A DNA stretch of 64,000 bases from Bolinopsis microptera (Eukaryota; Ctenophora; Tentaculata; Lobata; Bolinopsidae): assembly GCF_026151205.1 (NCBI RefSeq), contig NC_087072.1:2251375-2315374 (forward strand). The letters run 5' to 3'. A model generated the notes under the pieces. It had not been told where the DNA came from. It saw only the letters and a program-made list of their open reading frames with translations, and searched no databases. Positions 23,149-63,529 of this stretch are shown in pieces. How positions within the stretch are numbered: the first letter of the stretch is position 1; each line of letters begins with the position of its first letter. Made by a program: the position numbers and the translations under genes.

Positions 23149-23215
23149 TAATCAACACCTCATCAATACATCTACATAGTAGTGTACTGTAAACATAGTA
23201 CCATAACATTGCTAA
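23149..23215 (+). repeat. Fragment matching the tail of the SINE at 24075-24310
   Basis: The sequence ACCTCATCAATACATCTACATAG...GTACTGTAAACATAGTAC resembles 24255-24300 (ACTCATCGACATTGTAGTGTGCTGTAAAAGTAGTAC). LINE-B may have inserted into or next to an older SINE copy. Confidence 0.5.
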
Positions 23216-30600: not shown

Positions 30601-30987
30601 AGTCAAGAGCAGAGAAGGTATTAGCAGTATAATCTGGATTCTTCTTGACATAGGACGAGTATGCAGGGCTAATATAATAACATACCAAAAATAGGTCAAA
30701 ATCAAGTTTAAAAAAGTTCATGTCCAGTTTAACAACAATAATGTCATCAGATTCATTACAAAGCACACTAGAGACACCTTTTCTTAGGTCATTTTCAGCA
30801 AGAATGCAGACCCCCCTGAGCGTGAATTTTTGCGGTTGCTATTAAAAGAGAGGTATCCTTCAATCTTAACTTGCTTCTTTGTTTCTTGAAGACAAAGAAT
30901 GTTAGCTTGTTTGAGGATTGACAAAAATTCGCTATTTTCAAATTTGTTAGACCCGTCTCCTGTGCTGTCCTGGATGTTCCAGGACAT
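27608..30987 (-). pseudogene. LINE-C ORF2: endonuclease and reverse transcriptase, one frameshift
   Basis: The start is the ATG at 30987 (MSWNIQD), where the endonuclease begins. The reading frame shifts at a run of six C on the plus strand (30811-30816), and a one-base change there would join the two frames. Before the shift are MSWNIQ and LQETK. After it come GDANART and YSDHCPL of the APE endonuclease, then a reverse transcriptase with FVDLRKAFDTV, GTEQGHPLSPDLF and the active-site LWADDLVLL. A C-terminal CTFC...HVLTDC knuckle ends the protein. The long part from 30766 has 1052 residues. The shift may be a true mutation or an assembly error in the homopolymer. I cannot place the clade with confidence. 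Confidence 0.85.
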
Positions 30988-31539: not shown

Positions 31540-31722
31540 TGTGAACTTGATATTCTCCTATTATATTTTATATGTTTGTATCTATATTTGAATGTGAGTT
31601 AACTCCCTATATTTCAGGAGTATGTTATATATATGATGTCTCTGTTAGCCGTGGGGTCTTTGTATATCTATTGACTTCTTTCCTGACTTATCAACGTGTG
31701 TCATTGCTTCTCTAATTTAACA
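31540..31722 (+). repeat. 5' LTR of the copia element
   Basis: It begins TGTGAAC and ends TTTAACA, the TG...CA termini of LTRs. A TATA-rich stretch at about 31561-31573 may serve as the promoter. The open gag-pol frame reaches back into its 3' end (31696), but the real start is later. Confidence 0.95.
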
Positions 31723-31723
31723 T

Positions 31724-31732
31724 TGGTAGCAG
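31724..31732 (+). promoter_or_regulatory. Primer binding site
   Basis: TGGTAGCAG, one base after the 5' LTR, is complementary to the 3' end (CTGCTACCA) of eukaryotic initiator methionine tRNA, a usual copia primer. The match becomes weaker after these nine bases. Confidence 0.7.
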
Positions 31733-31746
31733 GCAGCGGTTCAAAA

Positions 31747-34700
31747 ATGACAGGTGAAGATAAGGTGGTAGAAAGGAAAGCTGTTGGACCACAAAAGGCC
31801 CCACCGGCATACAAGGAAGGTCAGAATTATGAAGACTGGCGGTTGGATATTGACCTATGGAATACTTTCACATCCTACGAAAAGAAGCGTCGGGCAACTG
31901 CATTCCTTTTGGAATTGTCTGAGGGACCGGTGAAGAACCATGTGAGATCGTTAGGAATAGACGTCTTAACTGCTGATGACGGATTGGACAAAGTTATAAA
32001 ACGCCTGGACAGTATTATATACCAGGAGGACTCATCTCACATGGCATATCGAGCATATTGTCGATTTGAAAAGTTTGAACGTCAAGAGGGTATGAATCTT
32101 CAGGCATTTATTTCTGAATTCGCTAAGTTGTATGAAGACCTGAGGAAACACAAGATGGAACTGCCAGATGCAATACTAGCATATAGAGTTCTAAACAGTG
32201 CAAATCTGTCAAGTGAAAAAGTGGATCTTGCACTGGCAACGGTTAAAGAGTTTACATATGCAGAAATGATCTCAACGATATCAAAGATTTTTTCTGTACA
32301 TGTGAACAGATCAGGACTTGACCAAGTGACGGGGTCTTGTATCAAGACTGAACCAGAAGAGTCATGTAATTTTACCTCCCATGGTTACAGACGGAGTAGA
32401 GGACAAGATAGAGGAGGTCCCATGAGGAGTAGGGGAACTCTTAGAAATCAGGGGAATCCGTATGTGAGAGGTAAGAGGCCCAGATCTCAGATCAATTGCT
32501 TCAACTGTGGGAAGAATGGTCACTACTCAAGAGAGTGTACTAATCAAGCAGCACCAAACCCAAATTGGAGATCTGAACAAGGGACATCGAGAAATTTCTT
32601 GGTTCAAGGTCAACCTGCTGAGATGGAAGTAGATGACTCATTGTCACGTACATACATAACATTGCTTACTACAGTGACTGATCCAGAGTCTGTGCTTTAC
32701 CAGCAAAACAGTGAAGTGAATTCACTAGTTTTTGAGACTCTTTCTTGTGCAGTTATCGATTCAGGTTGTACAAAATCTGTCGTTGGCGAGAATTGGGTCA
32801 GCCAGTACATAGAAACACTTGATGATGCTGAGAGAGAGATCATGATGTCTTCAACTAGCTGCCAGACACCTTTCACGTTTGGAGATGGTAAGTCAGTTGT
32901 GTCAAATAAGCTCATTAAAATTCCTGGAAGAATCGGAAGCAAAAGAATCTTGATTGAGGCAAATGTTGTCAAATGTGATATTCCTCTTCTGCTGAGCAAG
33001 CCTGCATTAAAAAAGGTTGGTGCAATCCTTAACTTTCTTGAAGATACTCTCGAGTTCAATGGAGAGAAAATACCCCTTTTGGAGTGCAAATCTGGACACT
33101 ATTGTGTGCCTATCTGTAACAAAAAGAGGAGTCTTGTGGACTCCAGTGTGAAAGTATTTCTCACAGTTACAGATGAAACTTTTGGTGGGAACAACAAAAA
33201 GCTTATGGCGAAAAAGGCACTTAAACTCCACAGACAGTTTGCCCATGCACCGATGTACAAACTAAAGACCCTCCTAAAGAATGCAGGTTTTGACTCTAAA
33301 TTATTTCTTGAGGTACTAGAGGATGTATGCCAAAAGTGTGAAGTGTGTCAAAGATACTCTAAGCCAAAGCCCAGACCAGTTGTTGGTCTCCCACGAGGAA
33401 CAGTGTTTAATGATTGTGTAGCTATGGACTTGAAAACGGTCCAGGGAGAGGTAACATTTCTGCACATGATTGACTGTGCTACACGATATTCAGTTGCATT
33501 GTTGGTTCCAAATAAACGAAAAGAGACAATTGTAGAGGCAATCTGTTCTGGGTGGATAGCACAGTTCTGGCCTCCCCGCCGTTTTATGGCCGATAATGGA
33601 GGGGAGTTTTCTAATGCAGAATATGTAGAAATGTGTGAGAGATTCAATATCGAATCACAACAATCGGCAGCTGAAAGTCCTTTTAGCAATGGTATGGTTG
33701 AACGCCATCATCAAGTTCTAGCTGAAAGTATGATAAAGACAAAGCAAGATTCGAATTGTTCGTGGAAAACAGCTTTGAGCTGGGCACTTAGTGCTAAAAA
33801 CTCTTTACAAATGACGGGTGGGTATTCACCCATGCAGTTGGTTATGGGTAGAAATCCATCTTTCCCCAATGTGATAGACAGTAAGCTTCCTGCAATGGAA
33901 TCGAGTAGTAGTGTCTGTAGTGAAACTGTAGAGAATCATCTAAGAGCAATGAGGATTGCCAGAGAGGGGTTTATAAGAGCAGAGAATAGTTCCAAGATCA
34001 TGAGAGCTTTGAAAAGCCAGGTCAGAACATGTAATGATGTTCATCTCGATCCAGGGGAAAAGATTTTCTATAAAAGAAACAACAGTGACTCCTGGCATGG
34101 ACCAGGTGTTGTCATAGGTCGGGATGGTCAGACGTTTGTTGTAAAGCATGGATTTCAAATCATCAAGGTACATCCTTGTCACATTAAGCCAACATATGTC
34201 CCTGAATTAGAAGAAACTGGTAATTTGAAGGACAAAAGTGATCCCGTCAGTGTCAAAGCTCCTTCAGAATCGAACGATGATGAATTATCTGACTTTGAGA
34301 AAAATATGACAAGAACAGAAGAAAGAAATCAAGATGAAAATAACAGTTTGCCATTGGCTCAGGCGCAAATAACTGATGAAATAGATACTCCTTCTAGTGC
34401 TCCTGTAAGCACAGCCAGTGTTAATGGTAATGGAAATAAAAACCTGCCTAAGACGAAAACTTCTGTGATGTACAAACCCAAGTACCCTGAAGAGGGAGAA
34501 GAGGATGTCTGGGAGAAGGCTTACATCCTTAGTAGAGCAGGTAAGGCTGGAGGAAAATACAAAAACTGCCTGAACATTCAGCTTGATGGGGAGGAAGAAA
34601 CTCATTGTGTCGACTGGTTTGAGTTAACAGAGGAATGGCACGAAGATACAGAAGAGGAGCAGGAACATGAAGTTATGTTTACAAGCGTTACAGCTTCATG

Positions 34701-36183
34701 TGAACAAGCAATTGTTGATGCTAAGGAGGCAGAGCTTGAAAAGTTTTGTACCAATAAAGTCTATGAGGAAGTTCCTGATAAAGGTCAGAAAACGATTGGT
34801 GTGAGGTGGGTAATCACAAAGAAGATAAAGAATACCACGAATGTGTACAAGGCACGGTTAGTTGCTCTAGGCTATCAGGAGAAAAATCAAGCAATACGAT
34901 CAGATTCCCCAACATGCAGTAGGGACTCAATCAGATTGGCAATTACTCTTTTGCAAGCAGAGCATTGGAAACTGCAGCACATTGATGTACAGGCTGCTTT
35001 TCTACAGGGAAAAGATATCTCAAGAACAGTATACATTAAACCACCAAATGAAGCTAAGGTATCTGGAAAATTGTGGAAACTCCTCAAATGCATCTATGGC
35101 TTGGTCGATGGTCCAAGAATGTGGTATGTCGAACTAAGAGATACCCTAGTAGAGCTTGGTGTAACAGTGTCAGTGTACGATGAATCATTTTTCTTTTTAC
35201 AGAGAAATGATAAGCCGTGTGGGATCATAGTGATCCATGTTGATGATCTTATGTTTGGAGGACTGGAAATATTCATCAAAGAGGTCATTGGTGCCTTAAA
35301 AATGAAATACAAGCTCAGTATGGAAGTCGATACATCCTTTACGTACACTGGGCTCGATCTCAGTCAAAGTTACAGGGCAATCAAAATATCACAGCTGGGT
35401 TATGTAAATCAAGTGAGCAGAATCAAAATCGACCAGAACAAAGTAAAACTGAATGCATGTCCAATCAATGAGGCAGAAAGAAGTCAGTTGCGATCAGTAG
35501 CAGGACAGCTGCTCTGGGCAGCAACACAGTCACGACCAGATATTGCGTATGGCACATGCATTGCATCCAACTCCTATGCTTCGGGAACGATCAAAGATCT
35601 GAAACTGGTGAACAAGACAATTGTGTTTATGCAGAAAAACCCACTGTCAATCAGGTTTCCTTCACTTGACCTTCAACACACAACAATGGTTGTATTCAGT
35701 GATGCTTCCTTTGGTAACCTGGCTGATGGATCCTCACAAGGTGGGCATCTTGTATTGATGGTTGACCGATCTGGTCAGTGCTGTCCACTTACATGGCAGA
35801 GTAGAAAGATAAAGAAAGTATGTAAGAGCACATTAGCTGCTGAAAGTTGGGCATTAGTTGACGGCCTGGAGTCTGCAGAGCTGATTAAAGCGCAGTGGAA
35901 TGAAATTGTGAAAATAGATGTTCCTATAGTCTGTATAACGGATTGCAAGTCTCTCTTTGATGCTGTGAAAACAACAAACACCCTTGAAGACAAAGGGTTG
36001 AGGATTCCCATGGCTTGTCTAAGACAACGATTCAACAGAAATGAAGTACGTTATGTGTGGGTTCCAACAAATCTCCAGCTTGCAGACTGTTTGACAAAGG
36101 CTGGTGCATCTTCGTCTTTGTTGCGTGAGGTGTTAGAAAAAGGGACACTTCCTAGTGAACTGAGACAGTACTCTGTATTGTAA
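31747..36183 (+). CDS. Copia gag-pol polyprotein
   Basis: I take the ATG at 31747 (MTGEDK), just after the primer site. The upstream in-frame Met at 31696 lies inside the LTR. The protein has 1478 residues with no stop. In order it has: a UBN2-type gag with a CCHC knuckle (CFNCGKNGHYSREC, near 250); an aspartic protease (IDSGCTKSV, near 337); the integrase zinc site (H-x4-H...CQKCEVC); and the integrase core with catalytic acidic residues in AMDLK, ADNGGEF and GMVERHH (about 560, 615 and 651). A reverse transcriptase follows with DVQAAFLQG and IHVDDLMFGG near 1164. RNase H has FSDASF, AAES and TDCKS. IHVDDL replaces the usual YVDD box with a conservative change. It is probably translated as one frame and cut by its own protease. 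It may be active. Confidence 0.97.
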   Translation: MTGEDKVVERKAVGPQKAPPAYKEGQNYEDWRLDIDLWNTFTSYEKKRRATAFLLELSEGPVKNHVRSLGIDVLTADDGLDKVIKRLDSIIYQEDSSHMAYRAYCRFEKFERQEGMNLQAFISEFAKLYEDLRKHKMELPDAILAYRVLNSANLSSEKVDLALATVKEFTYAEMISTISKIFSVHVNRSGLDQVTGSCIKTEPEESCNFTSHGYRRSRGQDRGGPMRSRGTLRNQGNPYVRGKRPRSQINCFNCGKNGHYSRECTNQAAPNPNWRSEQGTSRNFLVQGQPAEMEVDDSLSRTYITLLTTVTDPESVLYQQNSEVNSLVFETLSCAVIDSGCTKSVVGENWVSQYIETLDDAEREIMMSSTSCQTPFTFGDGKSVVSNKLIKIPGRIGSKRILIEANVVKCDIPLLLSKPALKKVGAILNFLEDTLEFNGEKIPLLECKSGHYCVPICNKKRSLVDSSVKVFLTVTDETFGGNNKKLMAKKALKLHRQFAHAPMYKLKTLLKNAGFDSKLFLEVLEDVCQKCEVCQRYSKPKPRPVVGLPRGTVFNDCVAMDLKTVQGEVTFLHMIDCATRYSVALLVPNKRKETIVEAICSGWIAQFWPPRRFMADNGGEFSNAEYVEMCERFNIESQQSAAESPFSNGMVERHHQVLAESMIKTKQDSNCSWKTALSWALSAKNSLQMTGGYSPMQLVMGRNPSFPNVIDSKLPAMESSSSVCSETVENHLRAMRIAREGFIRAENSSKIMRALKSQVRTCNDVHLDPGEKIFYKRNNSDSWHGPGVVIGRDGQTFVVKHGFQIIKVHPCHIKPTYVPELEETGNLKDKSDPVSVKAPSESNDDELSDFEKNMTRTEERNQDENNSLPLAQAQITDEIDTPSSAPVSTASVNGNGNKNLPKTKTSVMYKPKYPEEGEEDVWEKAYILSRAGKAGGKYKNCLNIQLDGEEETHCVDWFELTEEWHEDTEEEQEHEVMFTSVTASCEQAIVDAKEAELEKFCTNKVYEEVPDKGQKTIGVRWVITKKIKNTTNVYKARLVALGYQEKNQAIRSDSPTCSRDSIRLAITLLQAEHWKLQHIDVQAAFLQGKDISRTVYIKPPNEAKVSGKLWKLLKCIYGLVDGPRMWYVELRDTLVELGVTVSVYDESFFFLQRNDKPCGIIVIHVDDLMFGGLEIFIKEVIGALKMKYKLSMEVDTSFTYTGLDLSQSYRAIKISQLGYVNQVSRIKIDQNKVKLNACPINEAERSQLRSVAGQLLWAATQSRPDIAYGTCIASNSYASGTIKDLKLVNKTIVFMQKNPLSIRFPSLDLQHTTMVVFSDASFGNLADGSSQGGHLVLMVDRSGQCCPLTWQSRKIKKVCKSTLAAESWALVDGLESAELIKAQWNEIVKIDVPIVCITDCKSLFDAVKTTNTLEDKGLRIPMACLRQRFNRNEVRYVWVPTNLQLADCLTKAGASSSLLREVLEKGTLPSELRQYSVL

Positions 36184-42852: not shown

Positions 42853-43253
42853 AATACTAGAGGGGCGAGTTACGTTGCGTGTCTGATTTCACATTTAACA
42901 CAGGGTTAACTAATGCGATAGCAGCAGTTACCAATTATCAAATTAACCTTAAGGATCACAGGGGCGTGATTAATTAGTACAGTTAATCATTGTTTAAAAG
43001 CTGGAATCCTCCCTTTTATGCTAGATACGGGAACAGTTCCCTTCTTGTGGAGCATGTTACCAGTAGTCAGTCTGCAGAATACTTTGTAGATAGTCACTGT
43101 GCACGTGGAAATGATATTTGATTGGATGGTGTTAGCTTTCTGCAGATTCTCAGTAGTAAAACTATTATTACTCTGTACAATCGTGTCTATGCTCTATCCA
43201 AGCGATGCCAACTATTCTGCCAACTATTCTGTTTAGTGTCTGTATAAGGGTAT
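42853..43253. other. Spacer, nothing recognised
   Basis: This is unique AT-rich DNA between the two arrays. The last 20 bases (43234-43253) are the first copy of a linker that recurs inside the next array. Confidence 0.5.
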
Positions 43254-44371
43254 AATTACCTGTTATCTCTCTGAAATCCCAATAATTACCTGTTATCTCT
43301 CTGAAATCCCAATAATTACCTGTTATCTCTCTGAAATCCCAATAGTGTCTGTATAAGGGTATAATTACCTGTTATCTCTCTGAAATCCCAATAATTACCT
43401 GTTATCTCTCTGAAATCCCAATAATTACCTGTTATCTCTCTGAAATCCCAATAATTACCTGTTATCTCTCTGAAATCCCAATAATTACCTGTTATCTCTC
43501 TGAAATCCCAATAATTACCTGTTATCTCTCTGAAATCCCAATAATTACCTGTTATCTCTCTGAAATCCCAATAATTACCTGTTATCTCTCTGAAATCCCA
43601 ATAATTACCTGTTATCTCTCTGAAATCCCAATAATTACCTGTTATCTCTCTGAAATCCCAATAATTACCTGTTATCTCTCTGAAATCCCAATAATTACCT
43701 GTTATCTCTCTGAAATCCCAATAATTACCTGTTATCTCTCTGAAATCCCAATAATTACCTGTTATCTCTCTGAAATCCCAATAGTGTCTGTATAAGGGTA
43801 TACTTACCTGTTATCTCTCTGAAATCCCAATAATTACCTGTTATCTCTCTGAAATCCCAATAATTACCTGTTATCTCTCTGAAATCCCAATAATTACCTG
43901 TTATCTCTCTGAAATCCCAATAATTACCTGTTATCTCTCTGAAATCCCAATAATTACCTGTTATCTCTCTGAAATCCCAATAATTACCTGTTATCTCTCT
44001 GAAATCCCAATAATTACCTGTTATCTCTCTGAAATCCCGATAGTGTCTGTATAAGGGTATAATTACCTGTTATCTCTCTGAAATCCCAATAATTACCTGT
44101 TATCTCTCTGAAATCCCAATAATTACCTGTTATCTCTCTGAAATCCCAATAGTGTCTGTATAAAATTACCTGTAATTACCTGTTATCTCTCTGAAATCCC
44201 AATAATCACCTGTTATCTCTCTGAAATCCCAATGAAGGGTATAATTACCTGTTATCTCTCTGAAATCCCAATAATTACCTGTTATCTCTCTGAAATCCCA
44301 ATAATCACCTGTTATCTCTCTGAAATCCCAATGAAGGGTATAATTACCTGTTATCTCTCTGAAATCCCAAT
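43254..44371 (+). repeat. 30-bp satellite, 34 copies in blocks
   Basis: The unit begins AATTACCTGTTATCTC and ends GAAATCCCAAT, with a period of exactly 30. I count blocks of 3, 14, 8 and 3 copies separated by a linker of about 20 bases (AGTGTCTGTATAAGGGTAT), then six copies with short variants (GAAGGGTAT, AATCACC). Most copies are identical. Confidence 0.95.
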
Positions 44372-47865: not shown

Positions 47866-48674
47866 AGCTTAGTAGCTTAGTATCTTAGTAGCTTAGTATT
47901 TAGTAGCCTAGTAACTTAGTTGTAACCCAAGATCCGAGCTGCTACCCTTACTGCTTCTTCACACTACTACCCCCAGAGTACTTAGTTGCTTAGTATCTTA
48001 GTTGCTTAGCATTTAGTAGCTTAGTAACTTAGTTGCTTAGTATCTTAGTTGCTTAGCATTTAGTAGCTTAGTAACTTAGTTGCTTAGTATCTTAGTAGCG
48101 TAGCATTTAGTAGCTTAGTAACTTAGTTGCTTAGTATCTTAGTAGCTTAGCATTTAGTAGCTTAGTAACTTAGTTGCTTAGTATCTTAGTTGCTTAGCAT
48201 TTAGTAGCTTAGTAACTTAGTTGCTTAGTATCTTAGTTGCTTAGCATTTAGTAGCTTAGTAACTTAGTTGCTTAGTATCTTAGTAGCGTAGCATTTAGTA
48301 GCTTAGTAACTTAGTTGCTTAGTATCTTAGTAGCTTAGCATTTAGTAGCTTAGTAACTTAGTTGCTTAGTATCTTAGTTGCTTAGCATTTAGTAGCTTAG
48401 TAACTTAGTTGCTTAGTATCTTAGTAGCGTAGCATTTAGTAGCTTAGTAACTTAGTTGCTTAGTATCTTAGTTGCTTAGCATTTAGTAGCTTAGTAGCTT
48501 AGTAGCTTAGTAACTTAGTAGCTTAGCATTTAGTAGCTTAGTAACTTAGTTGCTTAGTATCTTAGTAGCTTAGCATTTAGTAGCTTAGTAACTTAGTAGC
48601 TTAGCATTTAGTAGCTTAGTAACTTAGCATTTAGTATCTTAGTAGCTTAGCATTTAGTAGCTTAGTAACTTAGT
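47866..48674 (+). repeat. 47-bp higher-order satellite of TAGTNNCT octamers
   Basis: The main unit of 47 bases is five octamers of the form TAGTNNCT (TAGTAGCT, TAGTAACT, TAGTTGCT, TAGTATCT, TAGTTGCT) plus a heptamer TAGCATT. It repeats through most of the interval with some short units near the right end. A non-repeat segment GTTGTAACCCAAGATCCGAG... interrupts it at about 47929-47978, and a near-identical copy follows the array at 48671-48720. Confidence 0.9.
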
Positions 48675-48731: not shown

Positions 48732-48841
48732 ACATGTTACTATTCCTCGTATTCCGGCTCTCTTATTGGGTGAAACCTGTCAGGTGACATGTTACTATTC
48801 CTCGTATTCCGGCTCTCTTATTGGGTGAAACCTGTCAGGTG
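48732..48841 (+). repeat. Exact 55-bp tandem duplication
   Basis: ACATGTTACTATTCCTCGTA... to ...CCTGTCAGGTG occurs twice in a row (48732-48786 and 48787-48841). Each copy holds an ATTGG motif, so the duplication also doubles a possible CCAAT box of the promoter that follows. Confidence 0.95.
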
Positions 48842-48889
48842 TCAGCTCTCCCTGGTTCTGATTGGGTGAAGATAAGGCGTGTATTTATA
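48775..48889 (+). promoter_or_regulatory. Putative promoter for first exon 1a
   Basis: Three inverted CCAAT boxes (ATTGG at 48775, 48820 and 48861) are followed by a TATA-like TATTTATA at 48882-48889. The exon 1a ATG lies 237 bases downstream. Motif presence only. Confidence 0.45.
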
Positions 48890-49125: not shown

Positions 49126-49204
49126 ATGTCGATGTTCGGCGCGGTCGAGGAGGCCATGTTCGACACCATGGTCGACAAACTCAACAGAAAAGTCAGACGA
49201 ATCT
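49126..49204 (+). CDS. Spectraplakin-like gene, alternative first exon 1a
   Basis: The ATG at 49126 is preceded by an in-frame TAG (TTC TAG ACG GGA GTG ATG). The exon encodes MSMFGAVEEAMFDTMVDKLN and a basic end (RKVRRI), and is followed by a perfect donor GTAAGT at 49205. It ends in phase 1, which fits the common exon at 60221, where the split codon would become TAT. The local GC content is higher than the flanks. In vertebrates plectin, MACF1 and dystonin use several first exons that direct the protein to different places. I infer the same role here from position, phase and splice site. No conserved N-terminal motif is seen. Confidence 0.6.
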
Positions 49205-50073
49205 GTAAGTAAAACCATTACAGCCGACAAGCCGAGATTGGCTTTTTTCCATATGATTTGTCGTGATTAAAACTTTGTTCTTCGAGTTGCTTGTATTGAT
49301 GGTTATTGATTCGTTGGTTTGAAGCATTGACTGACTCATATGGGAATAGTAGCTCTCGGATATAAAATTCCCCGAATTTGGTGTACAGATTTTTGTGACT
49401 TTGAATGTGCTAATATGCATCGTACTGTCGAAAATGCAAATTTTCATAAACAGAAAAGTTGGCTGTCGAACCTGTGAAACATCATGATGTTCTAGAATGA
49501 AAGGAAGATCCGGAAGTTTTGTTTAAAAACGAGTTGTTTAATTCCAAATATAGTCAGTCACATGGCCTGCATGTCTACTCGAGAACACCTCTACTCGATC
49601 ACTCATTACTACACAACTACTTAATGTGTACCTGGTTACTTGTTTTCTGTGGGGGATTTACCTCCATCTTATTTCCTGCACCACCGTTTACCGTCCTGAC
49701 AACATGAAGTTAGCTAAAGGTAGCCTCCCTCAAGTGTTTGATACTCGTTACTTTCTGGAAGACATTCTGAGAAGTTCAGCTTCCTCGAGGTTGTTGTATT
49801 ACCAGAAATCTTGATAAATCATGTATTTATTATCTTAGTCCTGCTTTTAAGAAAATTTCGCGCCTCTTTTATTAGAAATGAGAATTGCATTAGATCGAGC
49901 CTTAAAAGGATCGAGGATTTGATGCATAACAGTAATATGTCCATTTTGAATTGATTTTCAAGCATAGCATTAAAGATCCTTGATGTTAATGTTATTGCGC
50001 ATTTAGCGTTAACTTGAAGATGTGATATCTCTATTGAAGTTTATTGTATGTTGTACATGCCATGAAATCTCAA
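49205..50073. other. Intron or spacer between first exons
   Basis: No exon or repeat is recognised. Plus-strand frames at 49519-49814 lack any domain. Confidence 0.5.
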
Positions 50074-50146
50074 CCAATCACAGAACGAAATTGAAGATAA
50101 TTAGCCAATCAGCAGCCGAAGAGGTGTCACGTGGGTTGGAGCCAAT
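50074..50146 (+). promoter_or_regulatory. Putative promoter for first exon 1b
   Basis: CCAAT boxes at 50074, 50105 and 50142 and an E-box CACGTG at 50128-50133 lie within 73 bases, about 600 bases before the exon 1b ATG. No TATA box is obvious. Confidence 0.4.
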
Positions 50147-50761
50147 GTGCTTTGAAATCTTGCGACTTACAAAGCAGTAGAGTAGTAGTACTGTAGAAAT
50201 TTCTAATCAGCGTTATAACGCTCTCTCGTGTGTGTGGTAGTGGTAGTGGCTTCCAGGTGGTGTTCATATCTCCTACGAGCAGCAACTGTCTTATTCTCAG
50301 GCCTGTTTCGTGGCTTGTGCCTAGTTTGTCTTTGAGTGCCCTCTCTCTCTTTCCTGTATCTGATCTGATGGCTGGATTTGTTGTGATATGTTGGGTTGGT
50401 TTTTGGACGTTTTCCTATTTTAACTTTGCACGCTGTACGGGCATATTTTCACTGATATATCTGTCGTCTAATGTGATACTAATTAATTTATTGATATGTA
50501 TCACATCCCATGACCCATCACGTATTGTAAATCGACTAAATGTATGTTGAATATTTGGCATACTCCAACTATTGAACCAGGCTGGTAATTTGATCTGGGG
50601 ATCTCGTATTTAACATTGGATTTTGAGTACTGTCTCAAAAGCGCCCGCAAATAATGTATGTTGCCATGTTCGACCTTGCTTTAAGTTTTGTTGAAATTAA
50701 AGAATGGTGCCCTCCCGTCAGTAAACTGAGACATGGCCTGAACCGGTTCTCGTCCGTTGCC

Positions 50762-50858
50762 ATGGCGACCACCTCTCACCAAGAGGGCACCCCAAAGCTG
50801 GAGGATGTCGCAGATCAAGTCTCCAAGATCGGACAGTGGAAACTGAAGATAGTTCGAG
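50762..50858 (+). CDS. Spectraplakin-like gene, alternative first exon 1b
   Basis: The ATG at 50762 has a strong initiation context (GTTGCCATGG). The exon encodes MATTSHQEGTPKLEDVADQV followed by SKIGQWKLKIVR and ends at the donor GTGAGT (50859) in phase 1. The split codon joins the exon at 60221 as GAT. The frame is open upstream to a Met at 50654, so a longer N terminus is possible. I prefer 50762 for its context. The hydrophilic, mixed-charge sequence and the clean donor support a real exon. As with 1a, a separate promoter is likely, and the product would differ only in its N terminus. Confidence 0.65.
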
Positions 50859-53800
50859 GTGAGTGGGTCAGAGAGAGGTTGTACTTGAGGCACTATTTAG
50901 TATTTATGTAACAAATTTAGATACTTAATCATGTTAATAGTTTCAGATTAGTTTCAAAAGATTAATTATATTACTTCTGAGATCTGGCCAGAAAGTAATT
51001 AAAACTTCGCAAGCAAAAATCAATTTAAAAGCCTTTTGTAAGAGAGAGTGTAGCATGTTGTGTATTGGTAATGAAATCGTGCTGTTTATACTTCACATGT
51101 CAGTCTTAATGTTTCTCAACACTCAGCTCATGTTATTCACGAGAATAAGATCGTGGATATTCTCACATTTTCACTCTAGATGCTCACTGTGGGGCAGTGT
51201 GTAGTTTGTAACGTGTCAACTGTGTTGTCTCAACGTTTCACTCTCGTATCTTAAGAATGTGTTCCAGGGACAAAAGGATTTTGCGGTTATTTTGGCCAAA
51301 AATCGCGATACCGCGAATTACATTTCGCGTTATACTAAACTATACATAACATTTGTCGCAAATAATAAATGGGAAAAATCGTGATTCCTTACATGCCGCG
51401 ATTTCCTTTTGTCCCTGTTTCACTCTCGTGTTCTGATGTCGTTTATTGGTCGTGTTCTTGAAATTCGTAATTGATTATCCGATCAATGGATCAGTTTTTC
51501 AGCGAAAATGTGAAACTTAGAAAATGTTTTAATAATCAGCAAAAGATTTACATTGTGATCGACAGATTGAGTTTTTTTGGTTAGTGGTTGCAAACTCATG
51601 TATCAAAGAATTATCAACGAGATGACGGACACATAACCAACCATTGCAGCTTGAAGGTCGAACTTTATAAGAAGCGCTGAATGCATATTTTGTAAGGATC
51701 TAGGTTCATTCTTTCAGTTGGGTTTGGTCTGATGTAGAGTAAATAGTTCTACAAACACCAGCTCATGCTTGAGTTGTTCCAATTATCTACTGTTTAATTG
51801 TGCAACTTTCGATGATCGTTCTCATCAAAAATCATTTTACTTTTGGTCAAATGATTCCCTAATTAATGTCGAGTCCACGTCTTCCCCATTCGTCTGGTAG
51901 CGAACATTTCGTCTTATGTTCAGTTTGTATTGTCTTGAATTGAGTATGCAAAATATTTTTCACACCAAAATGCACTCTGAAACTGCGAGTATGGAACCTT
52001 AATACAGGATGTAAATTCACTATCTCATTCACACGTGAACCAGGTTTTTGTTGCCTAAGCAGGCAAGAAAGAGATAACGACTTATGTGAGTTAGTGTGGG
52101 CTGTATTCGGCGTGTCTTCATCCGCTACACTTTGTTAAATGTCAAACACAAGATAATATTGTGAAAAGCACAGGTTTTTCACAGAAATGTGAAATTGGTT
52201 ACATCATTAAACATTATGCTGGTTCACACCACGTGGAAGTTAACACACTGTTAACTTTACTACGTGATAATTGAAGTGAGCAGAGGTATCCGTATATGTT
52301 CCGGAGCTGATCAATATTTTAAATGCCATATAAGGAATAATTACAGATCAATGTACCATCTGTGTTGGATATAAGCTACAGCTGGGCGCTGGCCCCTGCC
52401 AACTTAAATGTATAAATGATAATTATAAACATGGTACTTTTGTATTCTTCTTGACTCTTTTTAGCTACTTTGTATTCTCAGACGACTGACAGTGGTCACT
52501 GGACAACTTTGTTACTATACAAAATTCAAAGTTTCATTTGTTATTTTTTATCAAATACTAGGCTATACTATCTACTAGGCTATACTATCCATGATCGGTC
52601 TTTATCCAGATAAACAGATCATAACAATCGATGTTTTATTTAGATGAAACTGGTATTTTCTTAATGAAGGGGAAAGCCAAAATATTCACAAAATTTCACA
52701 AGAATTAATTAACGACTTTCATCACTGTTTATCTGTTATCAGTAAACTTGGTGCACCACCACTTCCTTTCTCCAGAACACAGTACATTATCCTGATAACC
52801 GTAGTTTAGTATTCCCGTCAGTAGTAGAGCACCAATTTCCTTCTCCTGAGTAAGTAAGCAAATTATTGACCCGCCCTACAATATTTTCAATTAAGATGTA
52901 AACCATTTAGTTCCAAGGCCAGTGTTTTACCCGATCTGGGTAAAATAAAATTGGCCCAATTTTACGGCTCTCTCTTTCTCGATTTCACTCGATCATTTGA
53001 GTTAAAAAATCATAAACCGTTTAACATTTTTTCAGCCGAATAATCGGGTAGCTGCAGTCCTAATTGATACTGTAACTTAGCTTTGTCATGCAGGGCGAGG
53101 AATGCAGGGCGAGGAACGTGCAGGGCCAGGAACGTTTTTTCCAGCCTTTAGTGAGTTAGTGTTCCGTGTTTTTGGTTGAGCGTATGCTATCCTCACTATT
53201 TCTATACGGGTATCAATAACCTGGAGCTAAATTAATATTTCATGGAACAAGTTGACCCAATAAACAATCTTCTCAAAACAGTTTCCCAACTTCTTTACAA
53301 GATTAATTGTCTTTGTAACTATGACACCCAATAGACAGTTTTTGGGTTTTCCAAATAGTTTCTGATTATTCTGATTTGCGACAAATGATATTGCACTGTT
53401 AGGATAAACGACGTTTCAAAGTAACAACTTCTTATTCATGCTGACAAAATTGGTAAATATGTGAGAAAACTGTCTCATAAAATTTATTAAACAAAAATGG
53501 CTAAACGACAACAAATTGTTCAAATACTCGACTAAAATTTGACACCCAAGTTGAACCACGATTAACTGTGTACCCCACTTTACCTGGGCAGTGTGTTTTC
53601 CCTCCAAAACAACTCCGGTAAATCGTGGTTTACTTTCAGTTATAATTGTCATCAAATTAAAACACTTAACTGTCTTTATCTTTTTCGTGATCTGATTTTT
53701 TATGCTGGAAACCAGAGGATGATTCGATTTTATTTCAACGAAACAGAATCGCCTCGAATATTATCACTAACTTTTCACTTTGATTAGCGCAGTCAGGTAG

Positions 53801-54124
53801 CGATTAAGATAAATGAGAGATAAGGACATTTTACCAGTTACCACACAGAAATACGACCATATAAGCTTTTGTTTGAGCGCCTGCCTGTATTGTATACTAT
53901 GTGCTACAACAATACCCTTAAATTGCACCCTTTTGTGCTGTTTCGTTTTCGTCAGATAAATCTTTTAATTGTTTCAAAACTTACTGTGATTAACAAACTT
54001 ACCATCATTATGACCAGACCGCTGATATATCGAGTTCAGCACATCTTTATTATCACGCTTTATCAGCTATTTTATTCCTCATTATACTCCAAAATTCACA
54101 AATGTCCTCGTAAGATTTTTTTCT
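50859..54124. other. Intron, no exon recognised
   Basis: This is AT-rich DNA with no recognisable exon. A small GC-rich repeat of GCAGGGCGAGGAACG-like units lies at about 53091-53132. Frames at 53416-54135 have no domain. Confidence 0.5.
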
Positions 54125-54486
54125 ATGATGTGTAAATTTAGAAATTCATATATGTTGTACCTTTTTCGCAGTGATAACAACTCACCTGCACAGCTTGCAT
54201 TACACTTTGTAGTAGAGAGTCAGAGTACTAAAAAGGGTAGAGTAGGCAGACACCAGTCGAACTTGCTTAGGACTATTAAATTTGATTTAGGTAGTAGGAA
54301 CATTCCATTTGTAAATGCAGACGATTTGTACAATTTAAGACTTTTAGCCTCTGATAGAGCGGGATGGAAGATATTGTTATAGCTTGTGTATCAGTATTTC
54401 TTTTTTTTCTGGCTACTTATCAGATCTTTAAGATGTTCATTTATGTTCTATTTTTGATTTGAATAAAGTTATATAATATAATAATG
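54125..54486 (+). mobile_element. Probable 3' remnant of a LINE (C-terminal tail)
   Basis: The frame ending at 54382 encodes PAQLALHFV, a basic KKGRVGRHQSNLL segment and LRLLASDRAGWK. This pattern (GR-x-R...L-x-x-DR-x-x-W) is common at the C terminus of LINE ORF2 proteins. After the stop come AATAAA at 54462-54467 and an AT-rich microsatellite end at about 54486. No reverse transcriptase core remains. Confidence 0.45.
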
Positions 54487-55587
54487 TACCTTTTTCAAAT
54501 TCTTTTTGTAATTCTTTTTGTTGCAATTCTCTCTGATGCAATTGTCTTTGTGGCAATTATTTCAGAGACTTAAAAAATAATTAAGCATTGCCGCCATTTC
54601 GTTTTTAAGTTTATTTCCTCATTTTACCTCCACTATCCCACACAACTAGTAACTACACTCCACTCCAGTAAAATACACGTGCTTCACTCTAACTTTATAC
54701 AATACAATATACTGATGAACATGTTCTAAATTAGTGAAGCCTGGGACCAGCAGTATAAGTACTAGTGCAGGTTGATATTGAGAGAGGAGAAGGGGGGGGG
54801 GGGGGGGGGGCAGACCGGAAAAGAAGTCGTTTAACTGGCAATTATTGCATTACTTGATACAACCTATACTACCGGTCAGTATCTAAATATTGCATGTAGT
54901 TGTACTCTCTTTTTTTGGCCCGGGACTCGTTATATAGGATATGTTTATATCTCTGAGCGATCAATCGGGAGTTCCACTATTTACACTGTAGTTAACCTGT
55001 ACCTTGTGGTCGTGGTATAGCTGATTCGTGTATTTCAGGTTTTGTAACAGGACCTAAGGTTTGAGATAAGGACTGTAAATTTGACTGGCCGATGTTTAAT
55101 ACACGTTCTACCTTTACAACACCAGTTCATAACATTAACTTCCGTTCTGTGAAATACGTTCCATCCTTGTGTTCCTTTTCTCTCTTGGTTTTGCTAATCT
55201 ACTCAAGCTGTGCATAGCCGGAATGACTAGTTATCGGACCCGCAGCTAATAGCTATTCCGTTTCACCGGAATGACTCGTACTACATTCCGGTAATGCTTG
55301 CAGTAAGAATATTCCTAAGTTGAGTAAGTTTCTGAGAAAGGTATCTGGTATAGGTTGTGCAGGAGGAGGAGGAAGCTGCAAGTTTAGTTGGCTGGCTTAC
55401 TGCCACTGTTCCTTCTCCTCAGCTCCGTAATCAGTGTGATAATGTACTTCTTACCGTTTGGTGAACCAGTACATATTGTATCAGTATTATAGTCTATCAC
55501 CATTGTATTAGTATATTATGTACCTTTATTTTTGTATAATTATGTCTATCATTACATATTGTATGACATTTTATCAATAATTATTAT

Positions 55588-55863
55588 TATATGCCCATTG
55601 TGTCTATTGTTGATATCCCATTCATTCAGCTTGTAGTTTTGCCCTGTTCGCAATTGACCTCACCACGTTAAGTCAACCTTGACTGACTCTCAATCTGGTC
55701 CTCTATACGCATCATTATATGCCCATTATACGCACCATTGTTTCTATTGTTGATTGCCCAGTAAGCCCATCCATTCTGCTTTGCCCTGTTCGTAATAGAA
55801 TATCTCGCCACGTTAAGTCAACCTTGACTGACTCTCAATTTGGCCCTCTGGCCTCTCTACGCA
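55588..55863 (+). repeat. Direct duplication of about 130 bp
   Basis: Both copies carry ATGCCCATT, TCTATTGTTGAT, GCCCTGTTCG and the strong match CACGTTAAGTCAACCTTGAC followed by TGACTCTCAAT. They differ by small insertions, so the duplication is not recent. Confidence 0.8.
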
Positions 55864-57358
55864 CTATTTACGTTATGTATTCTCGTTAATTTGTAACCAC
55901 ATATTTTTACTGGCTTTTAAATTTGTAGGACAGGACACTACTCATTTACGCTGCTTGTTTTAACCGAAAGATGCTTGTGTGGCTTAAGCTTTAAGAGCAG
56001 ATGCTATTAGATGCTTCTTTAATCTGCATGAATATCATGAATGTCATGCTCTATTCTTTTACAATTTTATGATGCAGTAGAAATATTTTAAGTTCTCAAA
56101 TTTAAACGATTCTCGGGAATTCAAGCAATAGCCTCACCTATATTCCGTAAAATATGTATCATGTATTGTACATGTATTGGAGTAAGAAAATATTGGTGAT
56201 AGGGCGTTTGTAACAACAAGAACAGATTAGACGTACTCAGGCCATCATACTTGTTCTACTAGATCTATTGTAATCTTTCCAGCATCTTATTTATATTTGT
56301 GATATCGTGGAATTGGGTATTGGAGTTGGATTAATGTCGTTATGGATGAGAAGAAAAAAACAATGCATTTTTAATAATTTGATAAAAATGAAACAAGATG
56401 CTTGAATTAAAGCGTGAAATTAAAGCTGACGGAAGTATTATGTTCAGAATAATCAGTATTTCACAGTATATAAATATGTACTATATATATAAATATATAA
56501 ACGTATACGTATTAAACTTGATTCTTCACCTTCTTGCTTTGACTGGTGATGGTGAAGCTCGTTTCATAACACCGGGCCGTGACTATTTACTTGTAAAGCG
56601 AGTGAAATCACTCCAGTCCTTATAAGTTCAAGGAAACTTGCAAGGAAACTTGCAGTTTGATAAGCATGGTAAAGCTTGTACTCGATAGTATTTATGCACT
56701 TCGTGGCTTGGAACAGTCTTCGCTCCGACCTCCTAGTCAAGTCGAGGAGTAGTCAAGGAGTTTATCTTTTGTTTACTACGAGGCTACTGCGCCTATTGTT
56801 TTACTTGCATATCCCTGCTTTGTTTTCATCTAAAAAGCTCCCTTTGCGGCGCAATGAAGGCTATGATAAGCGTTATGATGCTAAGATGATTACTGTGGTT
56901 CATTGTCAGTTCATAACCACAACTATGCTCATTTCTCACTGAGCATGCAACTACTATGCCGACTACAAATCACAGCAAATCACAGCTATAAGAACATGTA
57001 GCAGGGATCACTGTTACAAGAATGCACGTTCCTACACTTGCTATGAAGATTTAGAGTGAGATGTGTCAGGACGTTTAATTTGTCTCTTAACCTTCAAATG
57101 ATACGCTGGTAATTCAAATAACCGTCCCTGCTAATCCTCATATTTAATCTTCACGGCGTGAACTAGGAATTTATCACATTGCACAGTCCTTATAAACTTC
57201 TGATCTGCATGAATTCGTCATTTAATCGAGCTGGCACTTCAGCCGCGGTCCATTTAATAAGAAGCGAGGTGGGTAATAAACATGGTGCTGTTAGGTCCAG
57301 TCTTGCCATGTGCACTCTATGTAGTTGTACTCATGTATTCTGCGAGGAGCTCAGTTTA

Positions 57359-57600
57359 ATCTCCGTGGAGAATGCAGGGAGTTACCGAACTACCGTGCTC
57401 CACTGCTCGTGCTCCGTGGAGAATGCAGGGAGTTAGCGAGCTACCGTGCTCCACTGCTCAGTTTAGTCTCCGTGGAGAATGCAGGGCTCCACTGCTCAGT
57501 TTAGTCTCCGTGGAGAATGCAGGGAGTTACCGAGCTACCGTGCTCCACTGCTCGTGCTCCACTACCCGTGCTCCACTGCTCGTGCTCCACTGGAGCTAAC
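57359..57600 (+). repeat. Irregular tandem block around CTCCGTGGAGAATGCAGGGAG
   Basis: The phrase CTCCGTGGAGAATGCAGGG occurs four times, mostly followed by GAGTTACCGAGCTACCGTGC and CTCCACTGCTC with varied spacing. The core CTCCGTGGAG is a near-palindrome. Several frames stay open across it, which is a repeat effect. Confidence 0.85.
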
Positions 57601-58935
57601 TAGTCACAGAGTGGTCGGTGCCGGGTTCAAGCAGTTGTCAGCTCTGAGCTACCTCACTCGCAGCTCAACTACAGCTCTGACTCGCGGCTCGGCCGCTCTC
57701 AAATGAGAGAGAAACTGCTTCCACAATTCACTACGTGTGATTCATTCTTGCTTTTCCTTACTAACCTGTGTTAATGGCGTTAGCTCTACCTACACTTACT
57801 ACTCGTGATGCCCATATAAGGAGTGTATACTGTATACTACACGTGATGTCCATATAAGGAGTGTACACCTGACTGCAGCCAGCTCATCAATTTCTCTACT
57901 TCTAGCTCGTACGATCCGTGCAACCTGCTATGTCAGGGCATTAAGGATTGGCATTAAGGATTGGCTCTTTTTAAAAGCTGTCCGAAACTGGACATAAGAT
58001 TATGTCAGGCCTTGTGAGGGGGTCACGTTTCCTAGGGTCGAAGTAGACGATGGTAGTTACCACAATATCCATCACTTGTCAGTGATTGTCACAGGTTCCC
58101 CCTCTAACCATTCGTCATATCACTCCTTCAGATATGTCACCTTCAGCAAATTGGCAGAGATTCACTGCTGTGGGGGAGGGGTCAGGTTACTTGTGAGCAG
58201 GGTGAGCGCTGATCTTAGTGAGCAGTGAGCTGTGATATCAGCTGCATGATCTCCTGCACCCCCACTTAAGTTAAAGTACCAGCACCCCACCCACACTACC
58301 AACTCACCTCCTCTTTCTAATTTAACTCTGATCACACTGTGGTTCTCCAACCTTCGGCACTAAATGTCCTGTCATGAATTAAGATCAATAAAGAAGTAAT
58401 GCGATGATTTAGGACAGGGACACCGCTCAGGGCACATCTAAATGGGGCAAATACGGTTAACTTTTTGGATACTTATCAAGTTCATGTGGTAACCAATGAC
58501 AGTACCAATGACTGGAACTACCAGTGCTCTGAACTAAACCACACTTCCTTCCTGCTGGTCAGCTAGCTTCTGTGCTCAGGGCACACGTTAATTACGGGAA
58601 ATTATGGTTGGAAACTTATCAAGGTGTCGTAATCAACAACAGTGCCAGTGAAACTACCAGTGCTTCTAAACCAACTCTTTCTGCCAGTCAGCTCGGCTCT
58701 ATATGGCGGAGATAACAAGCTACTGATTCACCAAACTGGCATATAATAATCACATAATACGTGAGCATAATATGGAAATATATAATATGAACATGGTTAT
58801 TGGTTATGTTAACAAGCCCCAAATTTACGGTTCACCAAGTCCGCATATAATCAGCATAATCCGCACATAATAACCATAATAATAATTACATATTATGAAC
58901 ATGTTTATTTTGCACCTTGTCACGTGATTGGAGCA

Positions 58936-58996
58936 GCGTTACCCTGGTTACCCCGGTTACCCCGGTTACCCCAGCTGCTACCCAGGTTAGCCCCGC
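58936..58996 (+). repeat. GTTACCCCG minisatellite
   Basis: Short units of the form GGTTACCCC recur about four times, then decay into GCTACCCAGGTTAGCCCCG. Confidence 0.75.
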
Positions 58997-59613
58997 TCCA
59001 TTGTGATCGTAGATATAGTCTGATATTGTATATCCGTCCCGAATGAACACGTACTTTCGTGTACTACCTTGTACACTACTATAACCAAGCTTTGGGACAC
59101 ACTTTTGACGGTCATTGCCACTGGTCAATCGAGTTTGTCGTCTTATCAAACGTGAACTGTAGGTCGCTAAAACCACATTAACATAGCCGGAAGCCAATAC
59201 CTACCGTTGCCATTCATATTACCAATCTCATGTCAAAAAATGCCGTAAACACTCACTCTATACTCACTCTAAATACTCACAGATTTATATTTTTGAGTCT
59301 ATTTTAGAATCTGCAGTATACATTTATCCTTTTTGCTTTTTCCCCTTGTTTTATCATTCTGCGTGTCTTTATGTTGTATTTCTCGCGCATGATCATGAGT
59401 AATATCAACAATTTCTGGCGAAAACATATTTGCGAAACATTTAAAAGTCACTTAAAATAATGATAATTTGACGGTAGTGGATTAAGAGGAACACAGTGTG
59501 TTGACTGTGTTCGACCACGTGTTCTGCTCATACTCGCCACAAAACACAACACTCTACTCTAGTTGGAGCTACCTGGAACTTGAATGTAAAGAACTCCAAG
59601 GTTGCTAGGAGAG

Positions 59614-59692
59614 ATGGAAACCTCTATGAACGGAGAGGCGCCTGGGTCGGGGGAAGCGCTGGACCTATTGAACAACCTCCGGAGTAAAATGA
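59614..59692 (+). CDS. Spectraplakin-like gene, alternative first exon 1c
   Basis: The ATG at 59614 begins METSMNGEAPGSGEALDLLN and ends NLRSKM before a donor GTACGT at 59693. It has 79 bases and ends in phase 1. The split codon with the exon at 60221 becomes AAT. The intron to that exon is only 528 bases, so this is the most proximal first exon. The rise in GC content over the coding part and its close spacing to the CH exons make it the best supported of the three. It gives a short, acidic and flexible N terminus before the actin-binding domain. Confidence 0.7.
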
Positions 59693-60220
59693 GTACGTGA
59701 TAAACTTGGAAATCTGCCAACTTAACCGTGTGAACTGTTTGGATTGCTTCGATTGATTGAGAGATTATGGATTGTTTCTTTGATGAAGAGTTTATACGCT
59801 TATCAGTTTGTTTGAGCTTGATATGATTTGGATACGATTGAGAATATAGCATGTGATCAGAGCTTGAAAATAACAGCAGCGCATGCACACTATGTAGCAC
59901 TCTATAACGCAGCTTTTCAAGCTCTCTCAATCTATTGTTTTATGTACTTTTAAACTTTTAACTGCAGCGATTTAAAGTTTTAACAGTGTTAATTTGGCAC
60001 TGAATGCCCTTTTAAATAACCTTGCCAAAGCACTTAGCATGAGCAGCAGCAGTTTTAAATCCCCATTGTTTTGAGCATGAAACCGGCGACTTTTTTTGGA
60101 GAGATTTGCTATAATCAATTAAACAATATCCCAATTCTGTGTTGTGAATAATATGGCTGAAGTTTGATCACATTACACAGGGGCTGTGCCTGAATACCAA
60201 TTAAACGTGACTTATTTCAG

Positions 60221-60282
60221 ATGACAGAAGTGCCATTCAGAAGAAAACGTTCACAAAATGGATCAACACATATCTTATTAAG
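60221..60282 (+). CDS. Spectraplakin-like gene, common exon 2 (start of CH1)
   Basis: Acceptor TTATTTCAG ends at 60220 and donor GTAAGA begins at 60283. The exon has 62 bases: two to complete the split codon, then 20 codons reading DRSAIQKKTFTKWINTYLIK. The QKKTFTKW motif marks the start of the first calponin-homology domain in spectrins, plectin, MACF1 and dystonin, where it helps form the first actin-binding surface. Phase 1 in and phase 0 out. All three first exons fit it in frame. Confidence 0.93.
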
Positions 60283-60448: not shown

Positions 60449-60783
60449 GTAGGACAAGCAGTAGACGATCTGTACGAAGACCTATCAGACGGGAACAAGC
60501 TGATAACCTTGCTGGAGATCTTGACCGGGGAGAGGCTCCCCCGGGAGCGAGGCAAGATGAGGTTCCACAACCTCCAGAACGTGGAAAACTCTCTTAACCT
60601 GCTGAAACGCAAGAAGATCAGGCTCGTTAACATCAGGAATGACGATATTGTGGATGGTAACCCTAAGCTGATTCTGGGGCTTATTTGGACCATCATTCTG
60701 AACTTTGAGATCTCGCATGATCCTGAGGGACAAGCCAGTGCTAAAGCTACACTTATTGACTGGGCTAAGCGGGCCACCAGAGG
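60449..60783 (+). CDS. Spectraplakin-like gene, exon 3 (most of CH1, start of CH2)
   Basis: Acceptor CCCCCCAG ends at 60448. The donor GTCAGT at 60784 is weaker than usual, but the frame requires it. The exon is in phase 0 and leaves phase 2. It encodes [19 protein letters not shown], then [48 protein letters not shown] and [13 protein letters not shown], and enters CH2 at [15 protein letters not shown]. The sequence [16 protein letters not shown] and VNIRNDDI is closer to plectin and spectraplakins than to beta-spectrin as I remember these families. The domain would bind F-actin. It is 111 codons plus two bases. Confidence 0.95.
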
Positions 60784-60890: not shown

Positions 60891-60993
60891 GTACAAGGGT
60901 GTGGACGTGAGGAACTTTACATCTAGTTTCAAAAATGGGATGGCATTCAACGCCATCATCCACAGATTTAGGCCAGATATCATTGATTACGAT
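60891..60993 (+). CDS. Spectraplakin-like gene, exon 4 (CH2)
   Basis: Acceptor AAACCTCAG ends at 60890 and donor GTAAGT begins at 60994. One base completes the codon split from exon 3 (GG+G), then 34 codons read [20 protein letters not shown] and [14 protein letters not shown]. The motif [21 protein letters not shown] is the signature of the second CH domain in the spectrin-plakin family. It ends in phase 0. The preceding intron is only 107 bases. Confidence 0.95.
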
Positions 60994-61287: not shown

Positions 61288-61455
61288 GGATTGAAACCGG
61301 AAAACGCAGAGAAGAACCTGGAAAACGCGTTCAGCGTGGCGGAGGAGGAACTGGGAATACCCAGACTGCTGGACGTTGAGGACTTCATCCTGGATGAGCT
61401 GGACGAGAAAAGTATCATGACTTACCTTTCAGCTTTCAACCGCATGTACAGTAAG
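61288..61455 (+). CDS. Spectraplakin-like gene, exon 5 (end of CH2)
   Basis: Acceptor AAATTTCAG ends at 61287 and donor GTAAGG begins at 61456. The exon has exactly 56 codons, phase 0 in and out. It reads GLKPENAEKNLENAFSVAEE, then LGIPRLLDVEDFI and DEKSIMTYLSAFNRMYSK. The segment LENAF...VAEEELGIPRLLD and the DEKSIMTYLS motif end CH2 in this family. The expected next exon, leading to spectrin-like repeats of the rod, is not seen in the remaining 2.5 kb, so the window ends inside the next intron. In total the CH pair runs about 224 codons over four exons. Confidence 0.95.
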
Positions 61456-63009: not shown

Positions 63010-63091
63010 TAATTGAAATTCGTCGCACCAGATAGTGAAAGTGAAGACAAGGATCTTCATGACTTAGGTAGTTACTATAAAAAACAAGAAA

Positions 63092-63529
63092 ATGAACAAA
63101 AACACCTCTATTACGAAGTTCTGTAATTTTGGTAAGACGATATGTGGAAATAAAAGTCGGAGATCGAAATTTTTTGGTACCGGCTGTTTCGAGGGTTCTG
63201 TGCCATACCAACCGGGCTGCAAAAATTCTTCTAAGCCCTGTCAACGTCGAACAATTCGAAAGGGCGACTCATTAAGTGCTACCTTTGTTCCAAAAAAGGC
63301 TAAACGTCCCCTTCGTTGCCTCGGTACCATTTTATCAATGAGTGTCTCTGCTTCAAAAAAGGGCAACTGCAGATCTAGACGAATTCCTGCCGCATCAATT
63401 TGTCCCTATCATGATGACAGTGCTCGATTTTGGGTCAAAACTGCCGAAGGCAGAGTATTGAACTGTAAACGAATTGTTCTATCTAATCCTAGGAAAAGAT
63501 CAGCTTTTTTGTTGTCCGATTCAGACTGA
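63092..63529 (+). CDS. Unidentified open frame, 145 codons, basic and Cys-rich
   Basis: The frame opens with MNKNTSITKFCNFGKTICGN and has many Lys/Arg and about nine Cys, in a part named by KNSSKPCQRRTIRKG. I recognise no domain. It ends FLLSDSD. It is longer than most chance frames here and its GC content is higher than the flanks, which suits a coding remnant. A TATAAAAAA at 63076 is too close to the ATG to serve as its TATA box. An AATAAA at about 63840 lies downstream. It may be a piece of a mobile element or a small intronic gene. Confidence 0.25.
   Translation: MNKNTSITKFCNFGKTICGNKSRRSKFFGTGCFEGSVPYQPGCKNSSKPCQRRTIRKGDSLSATFVPKKAKRPLRCLGTILSMSVSASKKGNCRSRRIPAASICPYHDDSARFWVKTAEGRVLNCKRIVLSNPRKRSAFLLSDSD

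Follow-up and report, generated by a model that had tools for sequence, protein, structure and literature searches.

The 5′ end of a spectraplakin gene in the ctenophore Bolinopsis microptera probably follows the plectin type, with at least two real short coding first exons joined to a single exon that opens the CH1 domain. Three candidate first exons were found. All three are compatible in phase with the common exon, and only one of them, the exon at 50762, is clear of chance. The first-exon set is less firm than the assignment of the gene and that of the organism, and the locus, judged from its nucleotide sequence, is a good lead and not a demonstrated isoform set. The stretch that was analysed, called here the window, consists of 64,000 nucleotides of contig NC_087072.1 (assembly GCF_026151205.1), and positions refer to it unless a contig is given.

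Candidate first exons and the common CH1 exon

The initial annotation had described three exons that carry an ATG and end one base into a codon, all feeding the same CH-domain exon, and this description is accurate: the ATGs stand at 49126, 50762 and 59614, and every candidate leaves one base over (phase 1). The exon at 60221-60282 follows the acceptor TTATTTCAG|AT, and its CH sequence appears only when one base comes in. Since the first ATG in the frame of this exon lies well inside CH1, a phase-1 coding exon is needed upstream of 60221, and the reasoning of the initial annotation was sound in this respect. The predicted junction codons are TAT (Y) from 49126, GAT (D) from 50762, and AAT (N) from 59614, each followed by DRSAIQKKTFTKWINTYLIK, and the joined frames read M...VRRI-Y, M...KIVR-D, and M...RSKM-N, respectively. 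The aspartate supplied by the 50762 exon is also the residue of plectin and MACF1 at the same junction. Upstream of the ATG, the nearest in-frame stop is 4 codons away for 49126, 46 for 50762, and 9 for 59614. In a search of the genome each of the three exons matches only itself, and an origin from a transposon or a haplotype duplicate was rejected because each is single-copy. An Rfam search of the window, whose GC content is 38%, gave no match.

Table 1. Features at the 5′ end of the spectraplakin locus (window positions).
Feature	Position	Strand	Remarks
Possible promoter of 49126 exon	48765..48889	+	ATTGG at 48765, 48820, 48861; TATTTATA (TATA-like) at 48882; weak
Candidate first exon a	49126..49204	+	MSMFGAVEEAMFDTMVDKLNRKVRRI + 1 base; donor TCT|GTAAGT; 79 bp
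Possible promoter of 50762 exon	50074..50146	+	CCAAT at 50074, 50105, 50142; weak
Candidate first exon b	50762..50858	+	MATTSHQEGTPKLEDVADQVSKIGQWKLKIVR + 1 base; donor GAG|GTGAGT; 97 bp; Kozak GCCATGG; best supported
Candidate first exon c	59614..59692	+	METSMNGEAPGSGEALDLLNNLRSKM + 1 base; donor TGA|GTACGT (weak); 79 bp
Common exon, start of CH1 (DRSAIQKKTFTKWINTYLIK)	60221..60282	+	62 bp; phase 1 in, phase 0 out
Next exon, CH1 remainder and CH2 start	60449..60783	+	phase 0 in, phase 2 out; frame, splice sites and CH match
CH2 exon	60891..60993	+	frame and splice sites
CH2 exon, end of actin-binding domain	61288..61455	+	frame and splice sites

In the arrangement proposed here, transcription would begin from separate promoters at about 48.9 and 50.2 kb and perhaps at 59.5 kb. 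Each first exon would contribute its ATG, a peptide of 26 to 32 residues, and the first base of the split junction codon, and would be spliced to the same 62-bp exon. The resulting isoforms would have the CH1-CH2 actin-binding domain and the remaining protein in common; only a short peptide at the N-terminus would vary among them, and this peptide may set location or actin-binding strength, as in plectin. Leaving aside one tandem repeat, the window has 8 places where three CCAAT or ATTGG boxes fall within 110 bp, the one before the 49126 exon among them, and such clusters are too common to be proof of promoters. Two strong CCAAT boxes, 31 bp apart and spaced as before 50762, are found about 0.35 kb before an open frame of 153 codons (63068-63529) in the intron after CH2; the frame is basic and contains cysteine.

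The phase-1 boundary of the common exon is real and, on comparative grounds, ancient. Plectin chains diverge directly before the junction residue (IA|DERD in 3f7p and K|DERD in 4q57), that is, at the same place where the three candidate exons join the common exon. As for the 3′ side, one plectin structure has an insert exactly where the 62-bp exon ends, and the optional exon 2-alpha of plectin lies between exons 2 and 3 (PMC8468861); the insert may well be this exon. In the ctenophore genome itself, a second gene at C1:20455835 reads x|TA-QRDNIQKRTF after an acceptor with one incoming base, which is the same 5′ boundary and phase. A GT follows exactly 62 bp on, in a weak donor (GTATTT), and CH and GAS2 matches are present downstream on the same strand. 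Within C1:20455720-20571006, this CH1 exon of spectraplakin type is followed after about 115 kb by the genome's best GAS2 domain; the gene is probably a second ctenophore spectraplakin. A third CH exon, located on C6, has a different boundary.

Identity of the gene

The gene had been called spectraplakin-like and its host an early-branching animal from the letters alone. Both statements agree with what was found: the host is a ctenophore, the CH1-CH2 pair is closest to MACF1 and plectin, and spectrin repeats, EF-hands, and a MACF1-type GAR domain follow downstream on the same strand. The two CH domains (PF00307, E 1.6e-46) have as best PDB matches MACF1 (258.7 bits), plectin (258), and beta-spectrin (247.3). 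The downstream reading, which covered 200 kb, gave spectrin repeats (PF00435, E 8.7e-12 and 7.1e-7) at 160.9 and 163.4 kb of the region, and an EF-hand (PF00036, E 5.1e-14) and a GAS2/GAR domain (PF02187, E 3.4e-28) about 120 kb downstream, all on the strand of the CH exons. The best PDB match of the GAR domain is MACF1 with 90 bits, versus approximately 41 for GAS2 itself. The 49126 exon and the GAR domain lie about 133 kb apart, and strand and order suggest that the exons from CH through GAR belong to one transcript.

The plakin part is less distinct. One exon has an FDWS end as in plakin-domain repeats and matches plectin, desmoplakin, and BPAG1 weakly (E 0.12 to 0.35), with an unrelated coiled coil ahead of these matches (E 2.3e-5). 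The plakin SH3 domain (SH3_10) was not found at the locus by a search that would miss a domain split by an intron; elsewhere in the genome it has 5 matches at E <= 1. Plakin (plectin) repeats are absent from the Pfam matches of the ORFs that were searched. The origin of these repeats has been placed in early Bilateria (PMC9145010), so they are not required for the status of spectraplakin.

Splice signals, chance expectation, and alternative readings

Donors were scored with a metazoan consensus matrix (the frequencies of the donor and start matrices are provisional). The exon at 50762 scores 7.67, that at 49126 0.96, and that at 59614 -1.29, and four other donors of the same gene score 6.5, 2.88, 3.75, and 7.36. 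All three donors had been called good; this applies clearly to 50762, but the other two are weaker. The intron side of the 49126 donor is perfect, but a T occupies position -1. The agreement of the three exons in phase had been valued at 1 in 27, which is inflated, because the common exon forces at least one phase-1 first exon and the exons were also selected by reading; for the other two, agreement counts for 1 in 9 at most.

In a phase-blind scan, every ATG-ORF-GT locus between 36.3 and 60.2 kb was ranked under five scorings, with a coding term trained on giant ORFs from this same locus. In three of the five, the exons at 50762, 49126, and 59614 take ranks 1, 2, and 3, all in phase 1. When the coding term is omitted, they rank 1, 5, and 3 if only the intron side of the donor is scored and 1, 14, and 9 if the whole donor is scored. 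A null for ORF-plus-donor loci was obtained from 175 kb of DNA, and its rates are given per 11.1 kb. Under full scoring, 22 loci of the null (8 in phase 1) are at least as good as 49126, or 1.39 per 11.1 kb (0.51 in phase 1), and 33 (11 in phase 1) are at least as good as 59614, or 2.09 (0.70 in phase 1), while none in the 175 kb is as good as 50762. With the intron side of the donor only, the counts are 4 for 49126 (0.25 per 11.1 kb, 0.13 in phase 1), 13 for 59614 (0.82, and 0.38 in phase 1), and 0 for 50762. The latter exon beats all chance loci of the 175 kb in four of the five scorings, one locus lying above it in the fifth. The claim of three alternative first exons is thereby divided: 50762 stands on its own by strong signals, but 49126 and 59614 are no better than chance ORFs in the main scoring.

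The exon at 49126 also bears some likeness to a known first exon. Adding it to the query makes plectin 3f7p the top PDB hit (161.3 bits, versus 156.2 for plectin chain 4q57), with an alignment that extends into the plectin first exon (TMVDKLNRKVRRIYD versus SVLDPAERAVIRIAD). Of 20000 shuffles, 166 attain the raw gain of 12, as do 20 of 3005 genomic ORF ends (p ~0.008, uncorrected); the corresponding gain is 2 for 50762 and 0 for 59614. In all, the exon ends were compared with four known first-exon ends, three of them provisional sequences. Two of the 12 comparisons fell below 1 in 100, namely 49126 with the plectin end (24/3000) and 59614 with a provisional plectin 1f end (12/3000). The second likeness was not borne out by the related dystonin end, also provisional, which gave 3000/3000. 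The resemblance of 49126 to the plectin first exon is faint and may be taken as a lead only. It is highly doubtful that this exon is the ctenophore counterpart of the LDPAERAVIRI-ending plectin first exon and that a switchable spectraplakin N-terminus with its phase-1 junction already existed in the last common animal ancestor.

Alternatively, 50762 could be the sole first exon, with 49126 and 59614 being chance frames that reach a GT in phase 1. We regard this as rather unlikely, although it accords with 50762 alone being clear of the null, with the chance rates and weak donors of the other two, and with the finding that nothing else in the genome resembles them. Against it, 49126 and 59614 come directly after 50762 among the loci of 24 kb in the majority of the scorings, both in phase 1, and 49126 has a TATA-like site, ATTGG boxes, and the faint plectin-like end. 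A different possibility concerns where the transcripts begin: some or all of the candidates might be internal or 5′-untranslated exons of longer N-termini whose true starts lie farther upstream. Weak acceptor-like sites are present before 49126 and 50762, the frame of 50762 is open for 46 codons upstream, and plectin 1c has three non-coding 5′ exons (PMC8468861). The true acceptors of this gene score from -3.57 to 2.26 and are indistinguishable from background, so acceptor scoring is uninformative and leaves room for internal exons. In-frame stops close to 49126 and 59614 nevertheless speak against longer N-termini, and so does a scan of 56 kb upstream of 36.3 kb (minimum 12 codons), in which the top candidates are mostly within transposon ORFs. 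One locus in that scan, at 34306, exceeds 50762; it lies within the long transposon-like ORF at 31687-36183, which indicates that the score picks up any coding DNA. Such longer N-termini are judged unlikely, and the same low likelihood is given to their consequence that exon choice would contribute as much as promoters to isoform differences.

The identity of the gene can be disputed as well, since the CH domains of beta-spectrin trail by only about 11 bits and the plakin SH3 was not found at the locus; the gene could then be beta-spectrin or GAS2-like, with the CH exons and the EF-GAR exons coming from different genes. This is very improbable given a GAR domain that is MACF1-type by about 50 bits, spectrin repeats lying on the same strand between the CH and EF-GAR exons, and the exon with the FDWS end, even if its plakin matches are weak. 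A spectraplakin with at least two plectin-type coding first exons therefore remains the preferred reading.

As for the composition of the window, long ORFs are found at 1584-5555, 20494-23151, 27608-30838, and 31687-36183, which we take to be LINE and Copia-type retrotransposons by their appearance, and the first half of the window consists mostly of retrotransposon-like elements. Tandem arrays with a 30-bp unit (ATAATTACCTGTTATCTCTCTGAAATCCCA) and a 47-bp unit occupy 43252-44332 and 47980-48665, the second array lying directly before the 49126 exon.

Relation to known spectraplakins

In plectin, twelve first exons feed exon 2 (PMC8468861). The ctenophore locus is similar in that short coding first exons would all join a single exon with which CH1 begins, with divergence at the same codon. 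It differs in that the twelve plectin exons are supported by transcripts, whereas one strong and two weak candidates are predicted here, and the peptides are not recognisably alike save for the faint match of 49126. Dystonin isoforms 1-3 have tissue-dependent first exons (PMC9365387). The gene shares with dystonin and MACF1 the CH1-CH2 pair, spectrin repeats, EF-hands, and GAR; it differs in that the plakin SH3 was not found at the locus and in having filamin repeats inside the locus on the same strand. The Drosophila spectraplakin Shot has start sites A-D (PMC9320987), and the ctenophore gene would likewise be an invertebrate spectraplakin with several starts. Unlike some Shot starts, which drop CH1, the three candidates would all keep both CH domains. 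For genes of this group, shot and vab-10 included, alternative splicing together with different promoters has been described (PMC8012552).

Among early animals, a protein of the cnidarian Stylophora pistillata has been called a true spectraplakin with CH, plakin domain, and GAS2, while sponge and placozoan homologues are without some parts, and an ancestral CH-SR-EF-GAS2 protein has been proposed (PMC9145010). The ctenophore gene resembles the Stylophora pistillata spectraplakin as an early-animal member with CH and GAS2; no first exons are described for the latter in the relevant parts of that paper, the main text of which does not contain ctenophor-, Mnemiopsis, or Pleurobrachia. A literature search joining spectraplakin with the spelling "ctenophore" (Ctenophora not being used) found nothing.

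The initial annotation had dated the arrangement to before vertebrates. A ctenophore case would indeed be older, but alternative starts have been reported for Drosophila Shot and, more generally, for shot and vab-10, so that a pre-vertebrate origin is not new. For the ctenophore case to move the date back further, the exons would have to be real and to share their ancestry with the others instead of having been invented separately. If transcripts agree, promoter-driven choice of the N-terminus in a giant cytoskeletal linker would reach back to the split between ctenophores and other animals. This choice would then predate the plakin repeats that bind intermediate filaments. A protein with CH, spectrin repeat, EF, and GAS2, the architecture proposed as ancestral (PMC9145010), would also be present in a lineage that the main text of that paper leaves unnamed.

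The middle of the locus is peculiar. Giant ORFs with filamin repeats lie inside it on the same strand (E 1.2e-31, 2.9e-33, and 1.9e-15). They are found at C1 ~2372300-2401500 (120.9-150 kb from the window start) and are followed by long GPDGxPI-type repeats, which are without any Pfam family. The filamin/GPDG block sits between the plakin-like and the spectrin-repeat exons, a place taken by plakin repeats in flies and vertebrates. If the block is in the same transcript, the middle of this spectraplakin would be of filamin type. Further giant ORFs that contain filamin repeats occur at C8:5736919-5755453, C7:12341908-12360404, and C12:5692116-5813507. On C8 these ORFs include GPDG repeats as well, and the CH search gave no match in their neighbourhood, so the block is also found outside a spectraplakin. 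The GPDG array at C1 ~2399000-2401500 falls into shifted frames, and the unplaced contig C56 contains nine GPDG copies with 93% identity to the query; the assembly has probably collapsed or broken the tandem array.
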